64,000 nt of DNA from Mesorhizobium escarrei. GTDB lineage: Bacteria > Pseudomonadota > Alphaproteobacteria > Rhizobiales > Rhizobiaceae. Both the position numbers and the translations under genes were made by a program. Below, in pieces: positions 27,264-34,265 of this stretch. The stretch spans positions 1 through 64,000 of the forward strand of contig NZ_CAKXZT010000166.1 of assembly GCF_935825525.1 (NCBI RefSeq), in the 5' to 3' direction. The notes beneath the pieces were generated by a model that did not search any database, was not told the origin of the DNA, and was given only the letters and a program-made list of their open reading frames with translations. Numbering within the stretch: position 1 is the first letter of the stretch; every line of letters starts with the position of its first letter.

Positions 27264-28070
27264 TCACACTCTGGTGGCCAGCGAAAGTCCGAGATGGGGT
27301 CGAGACGCGATCTTCGCGGCATCACCGGCAAAGGTCCGAACGTTTCGGGATGCCGGCGATCCACGTGGTCCGTGGCGCCGGGTCGAAAGCCTCCAGGGAA
27401 CGAACCCGCGGGATGAAGAGCGCGGTTCGGTCTCTATGGGATTTAACGTTTGTGCTTGGTCGCTGCGGCCGCGGTGATGCGGCCGGCGGAGGGGAATGAT
27501 GATGGTGACGGCCGAGTGAGCCGCACCGGTGCCGCCGATGCTGCGGCGTAGCGGTTGCAGGGCGGACGATTTTGGCGTGTTGAGTTGCAACGTGGCGTGT
27601 TGGTGGGCGCTGGCGCACGAAAGCCGCCGATCCGGCGACGATGGGGTCCATCGGCAGGGATACGCCGTGGTGGGCGGGTTGCCGTCATGGCATTCGGGCT
27701 GCGCTTGTAGAGCCAGCTGATGGCGGCGCTCGGGCGTCATTGCCGCGCTCGAAGGTCTCGATGACGATCATCCTGCCGCCGCAGCACGGGCATGGCGGCC
27801 GCCAGTCCGTGGGAGCGGCATCGGCGCAGCCCGTTTCGCAACGTTCGGCCTCAGGCTGGGATGCGGCGAGAAGCTCGCGGGCGCGTGCGATGTTGGCGCT
27901 GACGTGCGCGCTGGCGAGCAGGCCATAGTGGCGGATGCGGTGGAAGCCCTTGGGCAGGATGTGGAGCAGGAAGCGGCGGATGAACTCGCTGGGATCGGGC
28001 GTCATGGACCGGTATCGCTCGCTGCCGTTAATCCTTGTAGCGGAACGTCACGCCGGCCGCAATGAAATCA
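27264..28070 (-). mobile_element. IS91-type element relic (transposase C-terminus)
   Basis: Minus-strand frames encode GVTFRYKD, then (after a stop/frameshift) SEFIRRFLLHILPKGFHRIR and HYGLLASAHVSANIARAREL with a CPCCGGRMIVIETFERG zinc-finger-like end. This is the C-terminal part of the Y2 transposase of IS91-family elements. The N-terminal two-tyrosine catalytic region is absent, so the element cannot move by itself. The downstream segment (27264-27690) contains the typical Pro/Arg-rich frames seen after IS91 transposases. The left end is not defined; the right truncation is near 28070, at a short inverted repeat. Confidence 0.75.
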
Positions 28071-28114
28071 ATATTTTGGTGGGCCCGGAGGACGGAGCAG
28101 GTGCATTGATTTCA
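28062..28114. repeat. 10-bp inverted repeat at the IS91 relic boundary
   Basis: TGAAATCAAT at 28062-28071 is inverted as ATTGATTTCA at 28105-28114, separated by 33 bases. It marks the point where transposase similarity ends and the accessory island begins. Whether it is a transposition scar or a regulatory dyad is unknown. Confidence 0.45.
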
Positions 28115-28205
28115 CTAGTTTTTTCGCGGGCCGAAATCGGAAGCTTTCCCTCACCATTCCGTACCATTCCGCGGGCGTGAATTCATTTTTGCTTCACGAC
28201 CCGAG

Positions 28206-29243
28206 ATGTCTCGTCCACCATTTACGCTGTTAGACCCTAGTGCCATCTCGTTTGGGGCGATGGGGTCGCAGGCTCAGATCCAGCCACTCCGATCAAAAAA
28301 ACAGTGGGCTACCGATCGCGCATTTCCGCTACCTCACGGATATCCCCACAGATATGACGAAAATGCCCCAACGCCGCTCAGCGCTGGGGTGACGATGTCG
28401 CACGCGATCTATATGGGATTGGGTCATCAGCGAACAACAAGATGTCAGGGATACCGGATGGGCTGCCTCCCCGCTCATGGGCGCATCGACTGCACTTCAT
28501 GCTACAGGGGCGAGAATGTCCTGTTCGGCCGTAGTCGTCGAGAGAGTCAGGATTGGCGCATCACTGCTAATCCTTTAGCCTGGGGTAACCCCAACGCCCG
28601 GATCATCATTCTCGGATTCTCGAAGGGACCGACCCAAGCTGAAAGCTTTGCAAGGACGCCTCATGACCAGATAGCTTACAAAGGAAGCCGTCCGAACGTC
28701 GGGCGAATTCTGGCACACGTGGGACTTGTGAAAAAAGGGACACGCGAATCCCAGGCAGCCGCGGTCGATTCTATGATCGCCGACAAGAACGGGCTGTTCC
28801 ACTTCGGCTCTCTTATCAGGTGCAGCGTTGAGCGTTACGACCGAGGGGAGCGGGAATGGAAAGGGTCGGGTGGCGGCATGCTCGATAGATTTGTCGCGAC
28901 ACCATTCGGCTCCGAGGTTGCCAGAAACTGCGCTTCCCGATTCTTGGTCAACCTTCCGAGGGCAACTAAGCTCGTCGTGATGTTCGGGATGGGATCACAC
29001 CAGAATTACGTCCGGGAGACACGCACCTTGCTCTCGGCCGTTCGCGGCAAAACCATGAGGGAGATCAATGCTGTGGCCTACGAGGATGACCTCATTACGG
29101 TTGTGCATGTAGAGCATTTTGCTTCACAGGGCGACCTAATCCCCCAGTGGCTCGGCGAAGGGAAATATCGCGATCATCCACGAAGCCAGTTTGGTAGGCT
29201 AGCCCGCGCTTCGGTGAATCGCGCAATCGATCGGTTCGCCTAA
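28206..29243 (+). CDS. Unrecognised protein with a Cys cluster and faint uracil-DNA-glycosylase-like features
   Basis: 345 residues, no confident family. A cysteine cluster lies near residues 80-100 (CQGYRMGCLPAHGRIDCTSC: C-x6-C-x8-C-x2-C). It is followed by NARIIILGFSKGPTQ, NVGRILAHVGL, FHFGSLIRCSVERYD, KLVVMFGMGSHQNYV and VVHVEHFASQGDLIPQWLGE. The order (a hydrophobic strand ending in a Gly turn, a helix for a bound partner, a second LG/FGMG strand, and a late V-HVEH strand) recalls the uracil-DNA-glycosylase superfamily. Some members of that superfamily bind a 4Fe-4S cluster through four cysteines. This is inference only. Codon use and GC look lower than in the flanking operons, consistent with transfer next to the IS91 relic. 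Confidence 0.6.
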   Translation: MSRPPFTLLDPSAISFGAMGSQAQIQPLRSKKQWATDRAFPLPHGYPHRYDENAPTPLSAGVTMSHAIYMGLGHQRTTRCQGYRMGCLPAHGRIDCTSCYRGENVLFGRSRRESQDWRITANPLAWGNPNARIIILGFSKGPTQAESFARTPHDQIAYKGSRPNVGRILAHVGLVKKGTRESQAAAVDSMIADKNGLFHFGSLIRCSVERYDRGEREWKGSGGGMLDRFVATPFGSEVARNCASRFLVNLPRATKLVVMFGMGSHQNYVRETRTLLSAVRGKTMREINAVAYEDDLITVVHVEHFASQGDLIPQWLGEGKYRDHPRSQFGRLARASVNRAIDRFA

Positions 29244-29591
29244 GTTGGTGGTTAGCAGCCGGACGCTGCGGTGGTGCCCCTAGCCGGGAGGCAAGATTTG
29301 AACCTTTTCAACGCTCAATTTCGAAAGTGGGACAGAATAGGCCATTCAAGATCCTTATCTTTTTCGTCGAGATTGTCTCACCGAAACCTAGCTAGGACAG
29401 GACCTCTTCGATGCCTGACCGGGACCAATCGATAGCGATCGACCGGCTAACTTGCACGGCAAAGGGGTCGCAAGTTCAAACCGTGCCGCTGTAGACGTCA
29501 CAGCATCGGAAAGGCTTGAAAGGGGCCGGAAGCGGATAGTCCGGTTGAAGGTTGGCGAGGCCGGAAATAAGACGATTGTGTTGGACGTAGT
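29244..29591. other. Intergenic in the accessory island, no gene recognised
   Basis: No convincing frame. Two patches resemble tRNA T-loops but no cloverleaf can be drawn around them. Confidence 0.35.
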
Positions 29592-29977
29592 TTACTCAGT
29601 TTCGCGCCGCATCACTTCGAGCTTGCTGTCGATCTTGACCGGGTTGTCATCTTGCCCGCCGAGGTTGATCGACTGATGCGGTCTGACATCCAGATGTTCC
29701 AGCACCCGGTTTATCGCGAACGGGTCTCCCTCAGCTGCCTTGATCGAAGGTTCAGCGCAATCTTGCGGCCGACCGGCATCTCCGCTTCCAGCTCGTCGGA
29801 CAGCGGGTTGTGCTCGTTTTTCAGGGCGATGTTGATGATCTTTTGCAGCTCGGTCTTGACGCTAACTGACCCTCTAGGCCGACCATCGGGACTACCGGAC
29901 TGGCCGGGTTGGAACGGACGCTTCAGGTTAGCGACGCGTCTCGCTATTCCTTCGGTGCTAGCGGTCGTTTTCTTCAC
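29592..29977 (-). pseudogene. DUF5681 (phage/mobile-element associated) protein, frameshifted
   Basis: The frame from 29977 reads KRPFQPGQSGSPDGRPRGS, the DUF5681 signature of small DNA-packaging-like or mobile-element proteins, through EMPVGRKIALNL. The family sequence then continues one base out of frame as IKAAEGDPFAINRVLEHLD and DNPVKIDSKLEVMRRETE to a TAA at 29592. A single frameshift near 29744 therefore breaks an otherwise complete gene. The HEPN-like gene begins about 40 bases away on the opposite strand. Confidence 0.65.
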
Positions 29978-30017
29978 TGCTCGGAATCATGAGTCAGGAA
30001 TGGTATGCTGGCAAGGT

Positions 30018-30740
30018 ATGGGCAAAAAACGGGGGATGGCACTGAACTCTCAGGGCTTCGACTTTGACAAGGCGACCGCAGAGCTTGTGCCGCTCCGTGA
30101 TTTTATTGACTTCGTGAACGCCCAGGTCGGCGTTTATATGGACTGTCTGTCCAGCTTTCGAGGCAACACCGTTCGGATCGAGCGTCAGGTGGCGCGGGTA
30201 AACCGGCCAAGGCCCGGGATGAAGGATGGGCATCCCGTCATGATAATGGAAAGCTTCGAGGACCCCTCGCAGCCGGATGCAATTCACCACCGCATCATTG
30301 CAGCCAGCGACTTCTTGAAGGCGAACCGGGACGGCGGATTTAGCCACCGGCAGATATGCTGGTCGATCATTGTATTCATGTTTGCTTATTGGGACGAGGA
30401 AATCCGGCCTCAGATCGCTAAGATACGCGAAATCGAGCCAAACGATCTTAAGGTGGATACCCTTGGCGACCTACGCATCCTCAGAAAATCAATTGTCCAT
30501 AACAAGGGCATTCTGACCCAAGCCGACCATGCGAAGCTCAAAGAGCTGGGCGACCTGGTGCAGCCGGAAAAGCGGATCGCATTATCCCATGATGACATGC
30601 AGAAGCTGTTCGCTCGGATAAAAAAGGCGATTGCTGTGCTCCTGTTGGAGAAAACCAAGGGCTTTCCCGGTGCGCCAGACCTTTCGGAGATCGCCAGCGT
30701 AGCGATTCAGAACGCTGGACCTCCCTACGGTGATGACTGA
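30018..30740 (+). CDS. HEPN-like protein with an RX4H motif
   Basis: 240 residues, mostly helical, no confident family. Around residue 155 it has LRILRKSIVHNKGIL, in which R-K-S-I-V-H fits the R-X4-6-H active-site motif of HEPN endoribonucleases. It is preceded by a long helix (ICWSIIVFMFAYWDEEIRPQ) as in HEPN domains. An N-terminal helical region (DFIDFVNAQVGVYMDCLSSF) and a Lys-rich C-terminal helix flank it. HEPN proteins commonly cut RNA in toxin-antitoxin and abortive-infection systems. The next gene, an Abi-alpha-like protein, begins 15 bases later. The start may be the ATG at 30018 or at 30036. The assignment rests on motif and context only. Confidence 0.55.
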   Translation: MGKKRGMALNSQGFDFDKATAELVPLRDFIDFVNAQVGVYMDCLSSFRGNTVRIERQVARVNRPRPGMKDGHPVMIMESFEDPSQPDAIHHRIIAASDFLKANRDGGFSHRQICWSIIVFMFAYWDEEIRPQIAKIREIEPNDLKVDTLGDLRILRKSIVHNKGILTQADHAKLKELGDLVQPEKRIALSHDDMQKLFARIKKAIAVLLLEKTKGFPGAPDLSEIASVAIQNAGPPYGDD

Positions 30741-30755
30741 ATTCGAGGGCGACCA

Positions 30756-31460
30756 ATGATTAGCGACGAAGAAGCAAAGGCGGCTCAGGAGCTTGCTAAG
30801 CTAGGCCAGAAGAGCGTCGAGGCGGCGTCTGACGCGGGTGGCTGGCTGACCAAAACCTTCGGCAAAGCCTTTGACCACATGTCGGAGGCTTTCGCTGATA
30901 AAGCTGCAGCCTACCGGGTTCGCAATCGCGCAACCGTCGTTGCAAAAACTCGCGCGCATCTGGAAAAGCTGGGAGTGACAGACTTTAAGGCCATCGACTT
31001 CCGCAACGGAATTCCTTTGCTGGAAAGCATCTCTGACGAGCCTGAGGAATCGGTCCAGGACTTGTGGGCAGCCTACCTTGCTAACGCTCTGGACTCTTCC
31101 CAGCAATCGGTTGTCATCAATCGCCTCATCATCAACGTGATCAAGAATCTTGAGCCGACCGACCTCCCTGTGATCCGGCGTCTAGCGGCCGAGGACCTTT
31201 CCATTCCCGTCCACGACCCGATACGCCTAGACCACGAGCACTTTTCGGTTGAGGAGCCAGACCTTTCGAACACTTTCGCGAGACTGACAGCGTTGGGTCT
31301 GTTCGCGTTCGAGAATAGCGGCAGCGTTGGATTTGCGCCTGACCCAGAATGGAAAGTAGCGTGCCAGATGGAGGTTAACACCGAGCTTGGCGAGTTCCGG
31401 GCAACGCCTCTCCTGATGTTGTTCAACCGGTCTATCCAGCAACCACCGTCGTCAAACTAG
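30756..31460 (+). CDS. Abi-alpha (DUF4393) family protein
   Basis: 234 residues. The N-terminal helix AAQELAKLGQKSVEAASDAG followed by GWLTKTFGKAFDHM and the central IPLLESISDEPEESVQDLWA with AAYLANALDS are the pattern of DUF4393/Abi-alpha proteins, which occur in abortive-infection-type loci. A GAGGG ribosome site precedes the ATG. With the HEPN-like gene 15 bases upstream it forms a two-gene unit. The C-terminal third (FARLTALGLFAFENSG) looks like a winged or helical extension. Biochemical role in the family is not established; a sensor or antitoxin for the HEPN partner is one possibility. Confidence 0.7.
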   Translation: MISDEEAKAAQELAKLGQKSVEAASDAGGWLTKTFGKAFDHMSEAFADKAAAYRVRNRATVVAKTRAHLEKLGVTDFKAIDFRNGIPLLESISDEPEESVQDLWAAYLANALDSSQQSVVINRLIINVIKNLEPTDLPVIRRLAAEDLSIPVHDPIRLDHEHFSVEEPDLSNTFARLTALGLFAFENSGSVGFAPDPEWKVACQMEVNTELGEFRATPLLMLFNRSIQQPPSSN

Positions 31461-31490
31461 CACAGATCACCAGCGAATATCGTCATTCGG

Positions 31491-31823
31491 CTAGGTGGTC
31501 AGCTTCACCGTGTTTCTGCCGGGGCCAATGTGACGGCGCACAATGCGTGCCATTTCCGACAAGCCATGTGCTTCTAGACTAAGAGCCAGTTCGGGCAACT
31601 GATGGGCCAGCCCGTTCGATTTCAAGAATTCGACTACAACCGGAACCAGACTTTCAATCTGGTCGGGAGCTTCTACAGCCTGGGCACGCAACCTTTCAGC
31701 AACGATGCTCTGTCTCTGAAATTCACCGGTGGGGTCCGCCTCGGGCATGAGAGTTGACACCTTCGGCCATGTCGGCTTCCAGACGAACAGAATTTCGGGC
31801 TCAACGTCCGAGATGCGGCGCAA
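31491..31823 (-). CDS. Hypothetical protein
   Basis: About 110 residues from a TTG at 31823; no family recognised. The frame stays coding-like upstream (IILKSDFRRATALRRISD) without an ATG, so the N-terminus may lie a little further upstream at a rare start, or be lost. The C-terminal half is helical (VPVVVEFLKSNGLAHQLPEL, LSLEAHGLSEMARIVRRHIG). It converges on the Abi-alpha gene with 30 bases between the stops. A short coding-like frame (ITGQLKPSDSITRSDLLQTF) lies just upstream on the same strand, ending near its start, and may be the damaged remainder of an upstream partner. Confidence 0.5.
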   Translation of the reverse strand: MRRISDVEPEILFVWKPTWPKVSTLMPEADPTGEFQRQSIVAERLRAQAVEAPDQIESLVPVVVEFLKSNGLAHQLPELALSLEAHGLSEMARIVRRHIGPGRNTVKLTT

Positions 31824-31863
31824 AGCTGTCGCCCGTCGGAAGTCGCTCTTCAGTATGATTGTC

Positions 31864-32769
31864 CCTTGATCTCTCCTTTAGGGAAGGTCTGCAATAGGTC
31901 GGAACGGGTAATTGAGTCGGACGGCTTGAGCTGCCCCGTGATCTCAATCGCGAGCCCGGCTTAGTCCACCATCTTGTAGGCGCTGCCGGCGTTGACCGCG
32001 TTTCGATCCCGTGAGCGGTAACACCTTTCGACGTTCTTTCATGTTATCCGATGACGCGCATCATGACGCTGAAGGGCTGAGCGAACTCTTGGCGCCCGAC
32101 GCTCAATATGCCTGCCTTGACAGGTGCCCAACGTATCGTCGACCCGTCGCGCTTCACGCAGGGGGTGGTTTAACATCCACAAGCATATTGCAACGCGTTG
32201 CATTTCATTTTGGTGTTGAAGATGCGCAACCCCAGTTCTGCGGCGATACTCGAATAGCCCGCGACCTTGACCCAGCTTTTCGCTTTGCTGCCTCGCTTTC
32301 GACCCCAGGAGACAGCCCGCAATCTTCTCAGAAATATCCTTCGATAATGCGCTTGCAGAACCGGCAGAAACAGCAGCGTCAAGGTATGCCGCACTCAGCC
32401 GCTGAAAGCGGTTTTGCAACGGGTTGCACCAAGCTGGCCTTCGGTAAGGCTAGGGCGCCGAGTCTCTCGTCGGCTAAGGTGCCAATTGGTGCCAAATGAA
32501 CCCGCAATCTATCTACATTCGTCCTCGTGCTGAAGCATGGCTCAACTCCCGCCAACTGTTCGTTCTTTTCGGTGTAGCCCTGCCCCATGAAGGGGCGGCT
32601 GCGGACGGAGGGCCGTCATGATGTCGGTCGGGAGGATATCGACACCACGACGGCAAAATCGTCAGGCGACGAGAACGAACATCCGGTTCACCGCAACTAC
32701 GATCGTCGGCGGATCGGCCATCCGGCTCAGGCCTCTGTCGGCATCGAACCAACAGCCAGTGCCAGCCCG
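31864..32769. other. Accessory-island DNA without an intact gene
   Basis: The minus strand shows short coding-like stretches broken by stops, for example GLAIEITGQLKPSDSITRSD near 31900 and RMADPPTIVVAVNRMFVLVA near 32700, but no family is recognised. Two copies of a 14-base palindrome occur (separate entry). This looks like decayed accessory sequence. Confidence 0.4.
32189..32428. repeat. Pair of 14-bp palindromes TGCAACGCGTTGCA
   Basis: A perfect palindrome TGCAACGCGTTGCA at 32189-32202 and a one-mismatch copy TGCAACGGGTTGCA at 32415-32428, 226 bases apart. The sequences between are not obviously related. Such pairs can be operator, resolvase or partition sites. Confidence 0.5.
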
Positions 32770-33261
32770 TCAAACGGCGTTTGTGTGGAACATAACCTTC
32801 CAATCGCCGTCTTGGCATACCGTCCCCAACTGATTTCGCACCTCGACCCAGAAGGTGACGATTCCGCGGTTCGGGTCGGAGGTCAGCCGCACAGCATCGA
32901 CACGCTGATAGACATGAATCGTATCGCCCATCTTTACGGGAGCTTTCAGGTTCCAGGTCATGCCGAGAAAGGCGATAGCCGTACCCTCCTTAAGGCCGAG
33001 ACGGAATTCCAAGCCCGTCGCGATGGCGAAAACGGCAGGTCCGTGCAGGATTCGCGTTCCGAAGGGTGACCGCTTCGCAAACTCTTCGTCCGTATGGACG
33101 GGATTGTAATCGCCGGTCAGCCCCGCAAACATAACGATGTCTGCTTCCGAGATCGTTCGACGCGGTGTCAGCCAGCTCTGTCCGACTTTGAAATCATCGA
33201 AAAACAATGCGTTCGGCCCAACCGTGATTTTTGGGCCTTCCTGCTTCGTGCGGGCATCCAT
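32770..33261 (-). CDS. MaoC-family dehydratase
   Basis: 163 residues of a hot-dog-fold enoyl-CoA hydratase-like protein. The catalytic Asp/His pair lies in FAGLTGDYNPVHTDEEFA and the family segments FGTRILHGPAVFAIATGL and KAPVKMGDTIHV follow. Members hydrate 2-enoyl-CoA or dehydrate 3-hydroxyacyl-CoA. AGGAG lies six bases before the ATG. It marks the left edge of the catabolic region and has a TTCGAC-type box about 100 bases upstream. The length is normal. Confidence 0.9.
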   Translation of the reverse strand: MDARTKQEGPKITVGPNALFFDDFKVGQSWLTPRRTISEADIVMFAGLTGDYNPVHTDEEFAKRSPFGTRILHGPAVFAIATGLEFRLGLKEGTAIAFLGMTWNLKAPVKMGDTIHVYQRVDAVRLTSDPNRGIVTFWVEVRNQLGTVCQDGDWKVMFHTNAV

Positions 33262-33360
33262 GGGTCTCTCCTGATTTCCGGTATTTATGCCATCCTCGCG
33301 AATGCGCGAAATTGCCAGACGATGCGCAGGGGGCAGATTACATACTTTTAAGACTTAATT

Positions 33361-33379
33361 TTCGACCAATGAGTTAGTT
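33361..33379. promoter_or_regulatory. Operator-like box upstream of the MaoC gene
   Basis: TTCGACCAATGAGTTAGTT lies in an AT-rich stretch about 100 bases upstream of the MaoC start. It resembles boxes at 33614 and 41407. A role as binding site for a TetR regulator of this region is inferred. Confidence 0.4.
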
Positions 33380-33382
33380 TTG

Positions 33383-33574
33383 TCAAGCGATGAAAACCTT
33401 GGGGTGGCGATGCCCTGTGTTCACGACAGCGATGGCCGATGAGAAGTCGATGTAGCGGCATCCCTCGATTTCCCAGATCTCTGCATTCTCAGCACGAGCG
33501 GCGTAGACCGTTGTTGTCGCGCCAACACCGCGGGAGATGGCGGCCGATCGATAATTGGCGCATCTGTTGAGCAT
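33383..33574 (-). pseudogene. 4-aminobutyrate aminotransferase (GabT) N-terminal fragment
   Basis: The frame gives RGVGATTTVYAARAENAEIW followed by EIEGCRYIDFSSAIAVVNTG and HRHPK, the first part of class III aminotransferases of the GabT type. It stops after about 60 codons; the PLP-binding part is absent. It is a truncated gene at the edge of the catabolic region. Confidence 0.7.
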
Positions 33575-33613
33575 TTCGTTCTTTTTTAGCGGGCGAACTC
33601 CAGGATCCAGATT

Positions 33614-33632
33614 TTCGACTAATTAGTCAAAT
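33614..33632. promoter_or_regulatory. Operator-like box with perfect 12-bp palindrome
   Basis: TTCGACTAATTAGTCAAAT; the core GACTAATTAGTC at 33617-33628 is a perfect palindrome. It lies upstream of both the GabT fragment and the thioesterase gene. It shares the TTCGAC-(C/T)-AGT pattern with the 33361 and 41407 boxes. Confidence 0.45.
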
Positions 33633-33851
33633 ATAAAATCTTGCAAGTCAAACCAATTCGCCTTAGGCAGCAGCTTGGCTCCTCATTGGCTGCATCCCAA
33701 TGCGATGCCACTCAGAACCCAAAAAGACTTTTAACTTGACTGTTGAGTATGCTGGAGTGCGAACGGGCGCGCTTGCGGCCTGGGAAACCAAGACGTTAGT
33801 TCTTCCAGTCCCTCCGCACAGGAAGAGCCATTCAGATGGAAGGGGAATTGT

Positions 33852-34265
33852 ATGCGGACCTATTCGGGCGTCGTCTATCCCGCGCAGACCGATGCGATGG
33901 GCCATATGACGGTTCAGTACTATGTCGCGGCGTTCGACCAAGCGATGTGGCATCTGGTTCACGCGCTCGGATACCGACCTGAATGGCAGACGGAGCGCGG
34001 AGAAGGTTGGGCCGACGTACGCCATGACGTGACGTTCTCCAAGGAGCTGCGTGTCGGCGGCCTGTTTTGGGTCGAGAGCTCTGTCGTCGCGATCGGCAAG
34101 ACATCCCTTTCGACGCGTCATCGGCTTTTCGACCCCGGCGGCGAGCTTTCGTCCACCGACGACGTGAAGTCGGTCTACTTCGACCTCAACGGGCGGAAGG
34201 CGCTTCCGCTGCCCGAACAAATTCGGATGTCAGCGAACGACCGCCTGACCGATGCACGCGGTTAA
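33852..34265 (+). CDS. Hot-dog acyl-CoA thioesterase (4-hydroxybenzoyl-CoA thioesterase-like)
   Basis: 137 residues. The active-site segment YPAQTDAMGHMTVQYYVAAF has the Asp-x-x-Gly-His-x pattern of the 4HBT family (usually D-x-x-G-H-V-N). The later strands (DVTFSKELRVGGLFWVESSV) also fit. GGAAGGGG lies six bases before the ATG. It would release free acids from CoA thioesters. It stands between the MaoC gene and the GMC dehydrogenase, which is on the opposite strand. The length is normal. Confidence 0.85.
   Translation: MRTYSGVVYPAQTDAMGHMTVQYYVAAFDQAMWHLVHALGYRPEWQTERGEGWADVRHDVTFSKELRVGGLFWVESSVVAIGKTSLSTRHRLFDPGGELSSTDDVKSVYFDLNGRKALPLPEQIRMSANDRLTDARG

Follow-up and report, generated by a model that had tools for sequence, protein, structure and literature searches.

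The two neighbouring genes described here, gene A and gene B, seem on balance to encode a stand-alone RNase of HEPN type, from a family that has no name, and, beside it, a separate single-gene Abi-alpha abortive-infection protein. Our best reading is that of two adjacent defence genes, each standing alone; they probably do not form the new two-gene system that an earlier note on this DNA had put forward. The analysis argues against such a system. What is left is a single gene open to testing: judging by its sequence, gene A probably encodes a HEPN RNase, which none of four family libraries (Pfam, PADLOC, NCBIfam and PHROGs) names above cut-off. Relatives of gene A were seen on plasmids and in two phage contigs, where their genomic positions differ, and the gene is rare in the order (2/397 genomes, its own and G288).

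Gene A lies at positions 30018–30740 of the plus strand (240 aa) of the window, i.e. the whole stretch of 64 000 nucleotides that was analysed, and gene B at positions 30756–31460 of the same strand (234 aa). Both open reading frames are intact and are separated by 15 bases, as the earlier note had described. Alignment with one relative (L009) makes an alternative start of gene A possible at Met7 (position 30036), which would give 234 aa. The surroundings also agree with that description. The GC content is 0.54–0.57 in the six 1 kb bins of 28001–34000, compared with 0.56–0.66 in the remaining bins of the window, so that the lower-GC island is real but the dip is modest. An IS91-type transposase relic adjoins it at 27685–28005 on the minus strand (PF04986, Y2_Tnp, E 2e-10, covering profile positions 151–178 of 183 only). 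The phage-associated DUF5681 gene at 29711–29977 on the minus strand (PF18932, E 3.4e-7) looks broken from its sequence, its longer reading continuing in another frame, and this relic would be consistent with a former phage neighbourhood in the window. A scan of 29300–31900, of a type that is weak, predicted no terminator-like site between gene A and gene B; the single promoter-like site that it returned (against 1.1 expected) lies on the minus strand. Two further reading frames were noted in the same region. The first, at 28206–29243 on the plus strand, encodes 345 aa with no Pfam match; relatives with 56% identity are carried by Methylorubrum and Roseomonas plasmids. The second is a short frame at 33383–33574 on the minus strand, close to where the low-GC island ends on the right. 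It matches only positions 9–49 of 403 of PF00202, the beginning of the class III aminotransferase profile, and is apparently a truncated gene.

The RKSIVH form of the R-X4-H motif, which the earlier note had recognized in gene A, is indeed present at residues 156–161 (30483–30500, plus strand). R-X4-H occurs twice in the protein, at 156 and 186, and the motif alone is weak evidence because, when gene A is shuffled 5000 times, some R-X4-H turns up in 40% of the sequences. By itself it is not significant; the evidence is its invariance across the aligned relatives. Alignment A7 comprises 17 rows, namely gene A and 16 relatives that are 15–68% identical to it (the fragments L016 and L064 and the phage relatives L065 and L067 are omitted), with a median pairwise identity of 19%. 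Only five of its columns are invariant in 17/17 rows: W125, R130, A134, R156 and H161. Excerpts of PMC3710099 give R-X4-6-H as the HEPN motif, located at the end of helix 3 or the start of the following loop, with a polar residue directly after the arginine and with an acidic residue in helix 2, typically as Ex3[KR]. These features fit gene A if its predicted helix 110–137 is helix 2. R156-X4-H161 is present in 17/17 rows and residue 157 is polar in 17/17 (N, K, H or Q). The acidic-x3-R element (D-E-E-I-R in gene A, codons 126–130, 30393–30407, plus strand) falls inside this predicted helix, with D or E at position 126 in 16/17 rows (N in L014) and R at position 130 in 17/17. The two phage relatives also retain the R and the H of the motif, the putative RNase active site.

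The AlphaFold2 model of gene A, obtained with eight sequences, has a mean pLDDT of 70.1 and a pTM of 0.63, with blocks of residues 111–210 at pLDDT 83–96. The predicted helices span residues 16–45 (the first), 110–137, 147–161 and 191–210; residues ~48–106 are strand-rich and poorly modelled, and pLDDT is below 50 at residues 1–12, 48–61, 86–106 and 224–240. In the model, helix 147–161 terminates on H161, the blocks around the motif reaching pLDDT 91–93, and an R-X4-H closing this predicted helix is the layout described for HEPN in the excerpts of PMC3710099. The structure prediction that had been suggested as a check thus places the motif at the end of a helix, but its confidence is partial and fold searches with it were not significant: the best Foldseek matches had E 0.94 in the PDB and 0.10 in BFVD. 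A second look with VIA returned the integron protein 3jrt (Z 5.9), named a HEPN in excerpts of PMC3710099, and Csm6 (5yjc; Z 4.0). We rejected these two matches as proof of a HEPN fold since unrelated helical proteins score equally or better (up to Z 7.2); the absence of a chain from the VIA list excludes nothing.

Profile searches with gene A itself gave nothing at E 1 in PADLOC, NCBIfam or PHROGs, and Saw1 (Pfam, E 0.072) was dismissed as below cut-off. The gene A profile had five matches only among PDB sequences, MIP-type isomerases and relatives (E 0.22–1.1), and setting profiles A6 and A5 against the HEPN_Swt1 protein of L058, a single sequence, yielded nothing; the L058 protein had one match among PDB sequences (0.086). 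Ten relatives were scanned in turn. HEPN_Swt1 (PF18731), below cut-off, is the sole Pfam match of relatives P0004 (0.049) and L014 (0.085), and PADLOC RTasHEPN matches L014 (7.7e-4) and P0009 (0.025), each of these matches spanning R-X4-H; no HEPN match was obtained for 8/10 relatives in Pfam and for 8/10 in PADLOC. The Cas10d match of another relative, P0006 (PADLOC, 0.039), was taken as chance. The earlier note's HEPN-like label for gene A is therefore supported by motif conservation, predicted helix placement and the weak or sub-threshold HEPN matches of relatives, but not by a significant fold match. We consider it very likely that gene A belongs to the HEPN superfamily, and likely that it is a catalytic RNase. 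Some HEPN families are listed as motif-less or inactive in Table 1 of PMC3710099, as excerpted, and the fold of gene A has no significant match; a HEPN-fold protein that is no RNase but binds nucleotides or serves as a structural helper, its R/H pair playing another role, would agree with both points. Yet an invariant R and H together with acidic-x3-R is what the same excerpts describe for HEPN families that are active, and we regard this alternative as unlikely compared with the predicted catalytic RNase.

For gene B, the assignment to Abi-alpha (DUF4393) was confirmed, with a match to Abi_alpha (PF14337) above cut-off (37.9 versus 29 bits, E 2.5e-9, match 75–186), accompanied by a weak match to PADLOC PDC-S47 (1.1e-4) and one to phrog_2232 (2.5e-4). 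Among PDB sequences it had one match only (0.4), its model when folded alone is useless (mean pLDDT 39.7), and no relationship was found on comparing gene A with gene B. Members of PF14337 are present in 14/397 genomes of the order, its own included, and relatives are carried by mobile elements, namely plasmid pG20 (L026) and a filamentous Vibrio phage (L027). In the latter, the Abi-alpha (DUF4393) gene (L027, 6566–7285) is the apparent single cargo of the phage. The neighbours of Abi-alpha genes vary, as read from the ORFs. According to excerpts of PMC6356687, an Enterococcus faecalis Abi-alpha cloned alone leads to abortive infection, with lysis about 10 minutes earlier, and this early-lysis abortive infection was seen for EF2833 only.

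Pairing of the two genes was assessed with a profile because many Abi_alpha genes escape a tblastn search that uses only gene B as query. This profile, made from gene B and 17 relatives, recovered 17/17 in leave-one-out runs. It found no Abi_alpha gene in 20 distinct loci of gene A relatives (best E 0.75, not credible). These loci (L003–L006, L009–L016, L059–L065 and L067) were examined up to ~5–6 kb on each side; they include the fragments L016 and L064, and the downstream sequence amounts to 160 bases in L010 and none in L067. Repeat loci were counted once (L001, L007, L017, L028 and L043 are the window, L002 is L012, L008 and L029 are L015, and L066 is L065). In the converse search, at a threshold of E 1, gene A relatives were found in 0/17 Abi_alpha loci, 15 of them identified by PF14337 in the order and the others being plasmid L026 and phage L027, with some stretches shortened by contig ends (L049, 4.3 kb; L050; L053). 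There were none either in L025, a weak gene B match (E 6.4e-4, in a 1924-aa frame) that was excluded from the Abi_alpha count and searched for gene A relatives only.

These counts, 0/20 and 0/17, argue against a conserved two-gene HEPN and Abi-alpha system; as far as sampled, the pair proposed in the earlier note is not conserved together, and the toxin/sensor or effector/regulator relation suggested there had adjacency as its only basis. No paper treating HEPN and Abi-alpha together was found in the open-licence literature, an absence that is weak. We may wonder at this stage whether a real two-gene system could have been assembled recently in this lineage, with a HEPN RNase as effector and a co-transcribed Abi-alpha protein as sensor or regulator. 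The genes are intact, share a strand, lie 15 bases apart and have no predicted terminator-like site between them, which speaks for such a system. Set against this are the empty counts in both directions, the Abi_alpha profile recovering 17/17, and the fact that Abi-alpha acts alone in Enterococcus (excerpts of PMC6356687), and we hold a local two-gene system to be very unlikely. Two separate genes remain our preferred interpretation.

The distribution of gene A relatives was followed in several collections. In the phylum sample, profile A1 found 2/398 genomes (its own and G450), and in the class sample profile A6 found 2/385 (again its own and G450); the order, phylum and class samples overlap, and the genome itself is included in each count. 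A pattern scan (A4) of an 84 980-species genome collection, with a reach limited by its patterns, detected 8 loci, 40–69% identical over the best segment. The plasmid search returned four remote relatives (26–35% identity over 24–56% of the protein), and further plasmid relatives were reached by searching onward from two of the four; matches H15 and H17, equal in coverage and identity to H14 and H16, were left out. Some of the plasmids with gene A relatives are conjugative. GenBank phages contained no gene A relative, and two IMG/VR contigs did (L065 and L067), other IMG/VR searches being negative. In L065 (5019–5693, plus strand), the relative has 224 aa, is 61% identical to gene A and lies on the opposite strand to the surrounding tail genes, which encode the tape measure, minor tail proteins and central tail fibre J, with one virion structural gene; its last 4 bases are shared with the end of a minor tail gene. 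In L067 (4998–5684, plus strand), the relative follows the large-terminase gene on the same strand at a distance of 27 bases, with small terminase, head–tail adaptor and major head protein genes upstream.

Other loci are varied. Named defence or HEPN genes lie within ~5 kb in 5/20 of them, a raw count with no background rate and with neighbours partly scanned. These are an ORF for HamA (Hachiman) that starts ~0.5 kb downstream of the L013 relative, with a helicase next; a protein with DUF3644 and an EC042_2821 nuclease domain in L004; an annotated Swt1-family HEPN protein in L060; Ymh in L061; and, in L005, proteins annotated as SIR2 and retron HNH. The L005 gene may itself be damaged at its start because two overlapping genes are annotated under the match. 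By ORF reading, with no family search, the relatives in L009, L011 and L015 are among housekeeping genes and that in L012 is between ParA/ParB-like genes and a transporter. Directly upstream of three relatives are genes with no Pfam match (L010, 5447–6022; L013, 5092–5943; L014, 5103–5927). Two of these three genes have HEPN-like spacing, R-X6-H (RKLRNRVH) and R-X4-H (RSKAVH), and from their sequences could possibly be second HEPN proteins; the L014 gene matches phrog_19461 (4.1e-21), function not assigned. As relatives occupy two phage places and varied plasmid and chromosome settings, this distribution suggests that they are a self-sufficient cargo gene.

Gene A could also be an RNase toxin with a dedicated antitoxin that differs between genomes, here gene B. 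HEPN toxins with antitoxins are common according to the literature excerpts, and in L010 the upstream ORF overlaps the relative by 22 bases. On the other hand, no recurring partner was seen across the loci read, the matched neighbours in the phage contigs are structural or packaging genes, and Pfam finds no nucleotidyltransferase in gene B, so that we think this arrangement quite unlikely.

Returning to two separate genes, gene A would be a single cargo gene for a HEPN-type RNase that moves on phages and plasmids. Its product would probably stay inactive in the absence of a phage component; on sensing one, it would dimerize or rearrange and cut RNA, with R156 and H161 as the putative catalytic pair and the acidic residue 126 assisting. 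Cutting of RNA would stop growth before the phage matures. A structural phage protein as trigger is no more than a fair guess by analogy, prompted by the relatives that lie within structural modules of phages and by the example of Tha (excerpts of PMC11087260). Gene B would act separately as an Abi-alpha protein, a family in which the Enterococcus member causes early lysis. The two genes would share a small accessory island, possibly on one transcript, with neither needing the other.

How does this locus compare with known systems? Gene B resembles the Abi-alpha protein EF2833 of Enterococcus faecalis V583 prophage 6 by membership of the same family above cut-off, and its relatives are likewise on mobile elements (plasmid pG20 and the filamentous Vibrio phage); it differs in being a remote member (E 2.5e-9) known from sequence, whereas EF2833 was shown acting alone. 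A HEPN-like gene beside a second small gene recalls the HEPN/MNT toxin–antitoxin systems, but gene B is Abi_alpha and Pfam detects no nucleotidyltransferase among the 10 neighbouring ORFs of the window that were scanned, and we rejected an MNT pair. The weak, below-cut-off matches of P0004 and L014 point to a likeness to the Swt1/Abi2 branch of HEPN (PF18731), and the weak matches of L014 and P0009 to the RTasHEPN of PADLOC; gene A differs in that it has no such match itself and is not fused to another recognized domain. A DRT-associated HEPN was rejected, since the same 10 ORFs gave no Pfam match to a reverse transcriptase. Finally, excerpts of PMC11087260 present Tha as a tail-activated HEPN prophage defence of Staphylococcus aureus. 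By description, the likeness is that of a HEPN defence protein carried by phages, and the L065 relative sits inside a tail module. We tentatively suggest that gene A may represent a HEPN family, as yet without a name, whose members would be RNases that act as single genes and are triggered by phages. Phages and plasmids would have carried this family into Alphaproteobacteria, Enterobacterales and Actinomycetota, some members having come to lie within the tail and packaging modules of phages. Its trigger may be a protein with which competing phages build or package their particles, and the family would then perhaps be a counterpart of Tha outside staphylococci.
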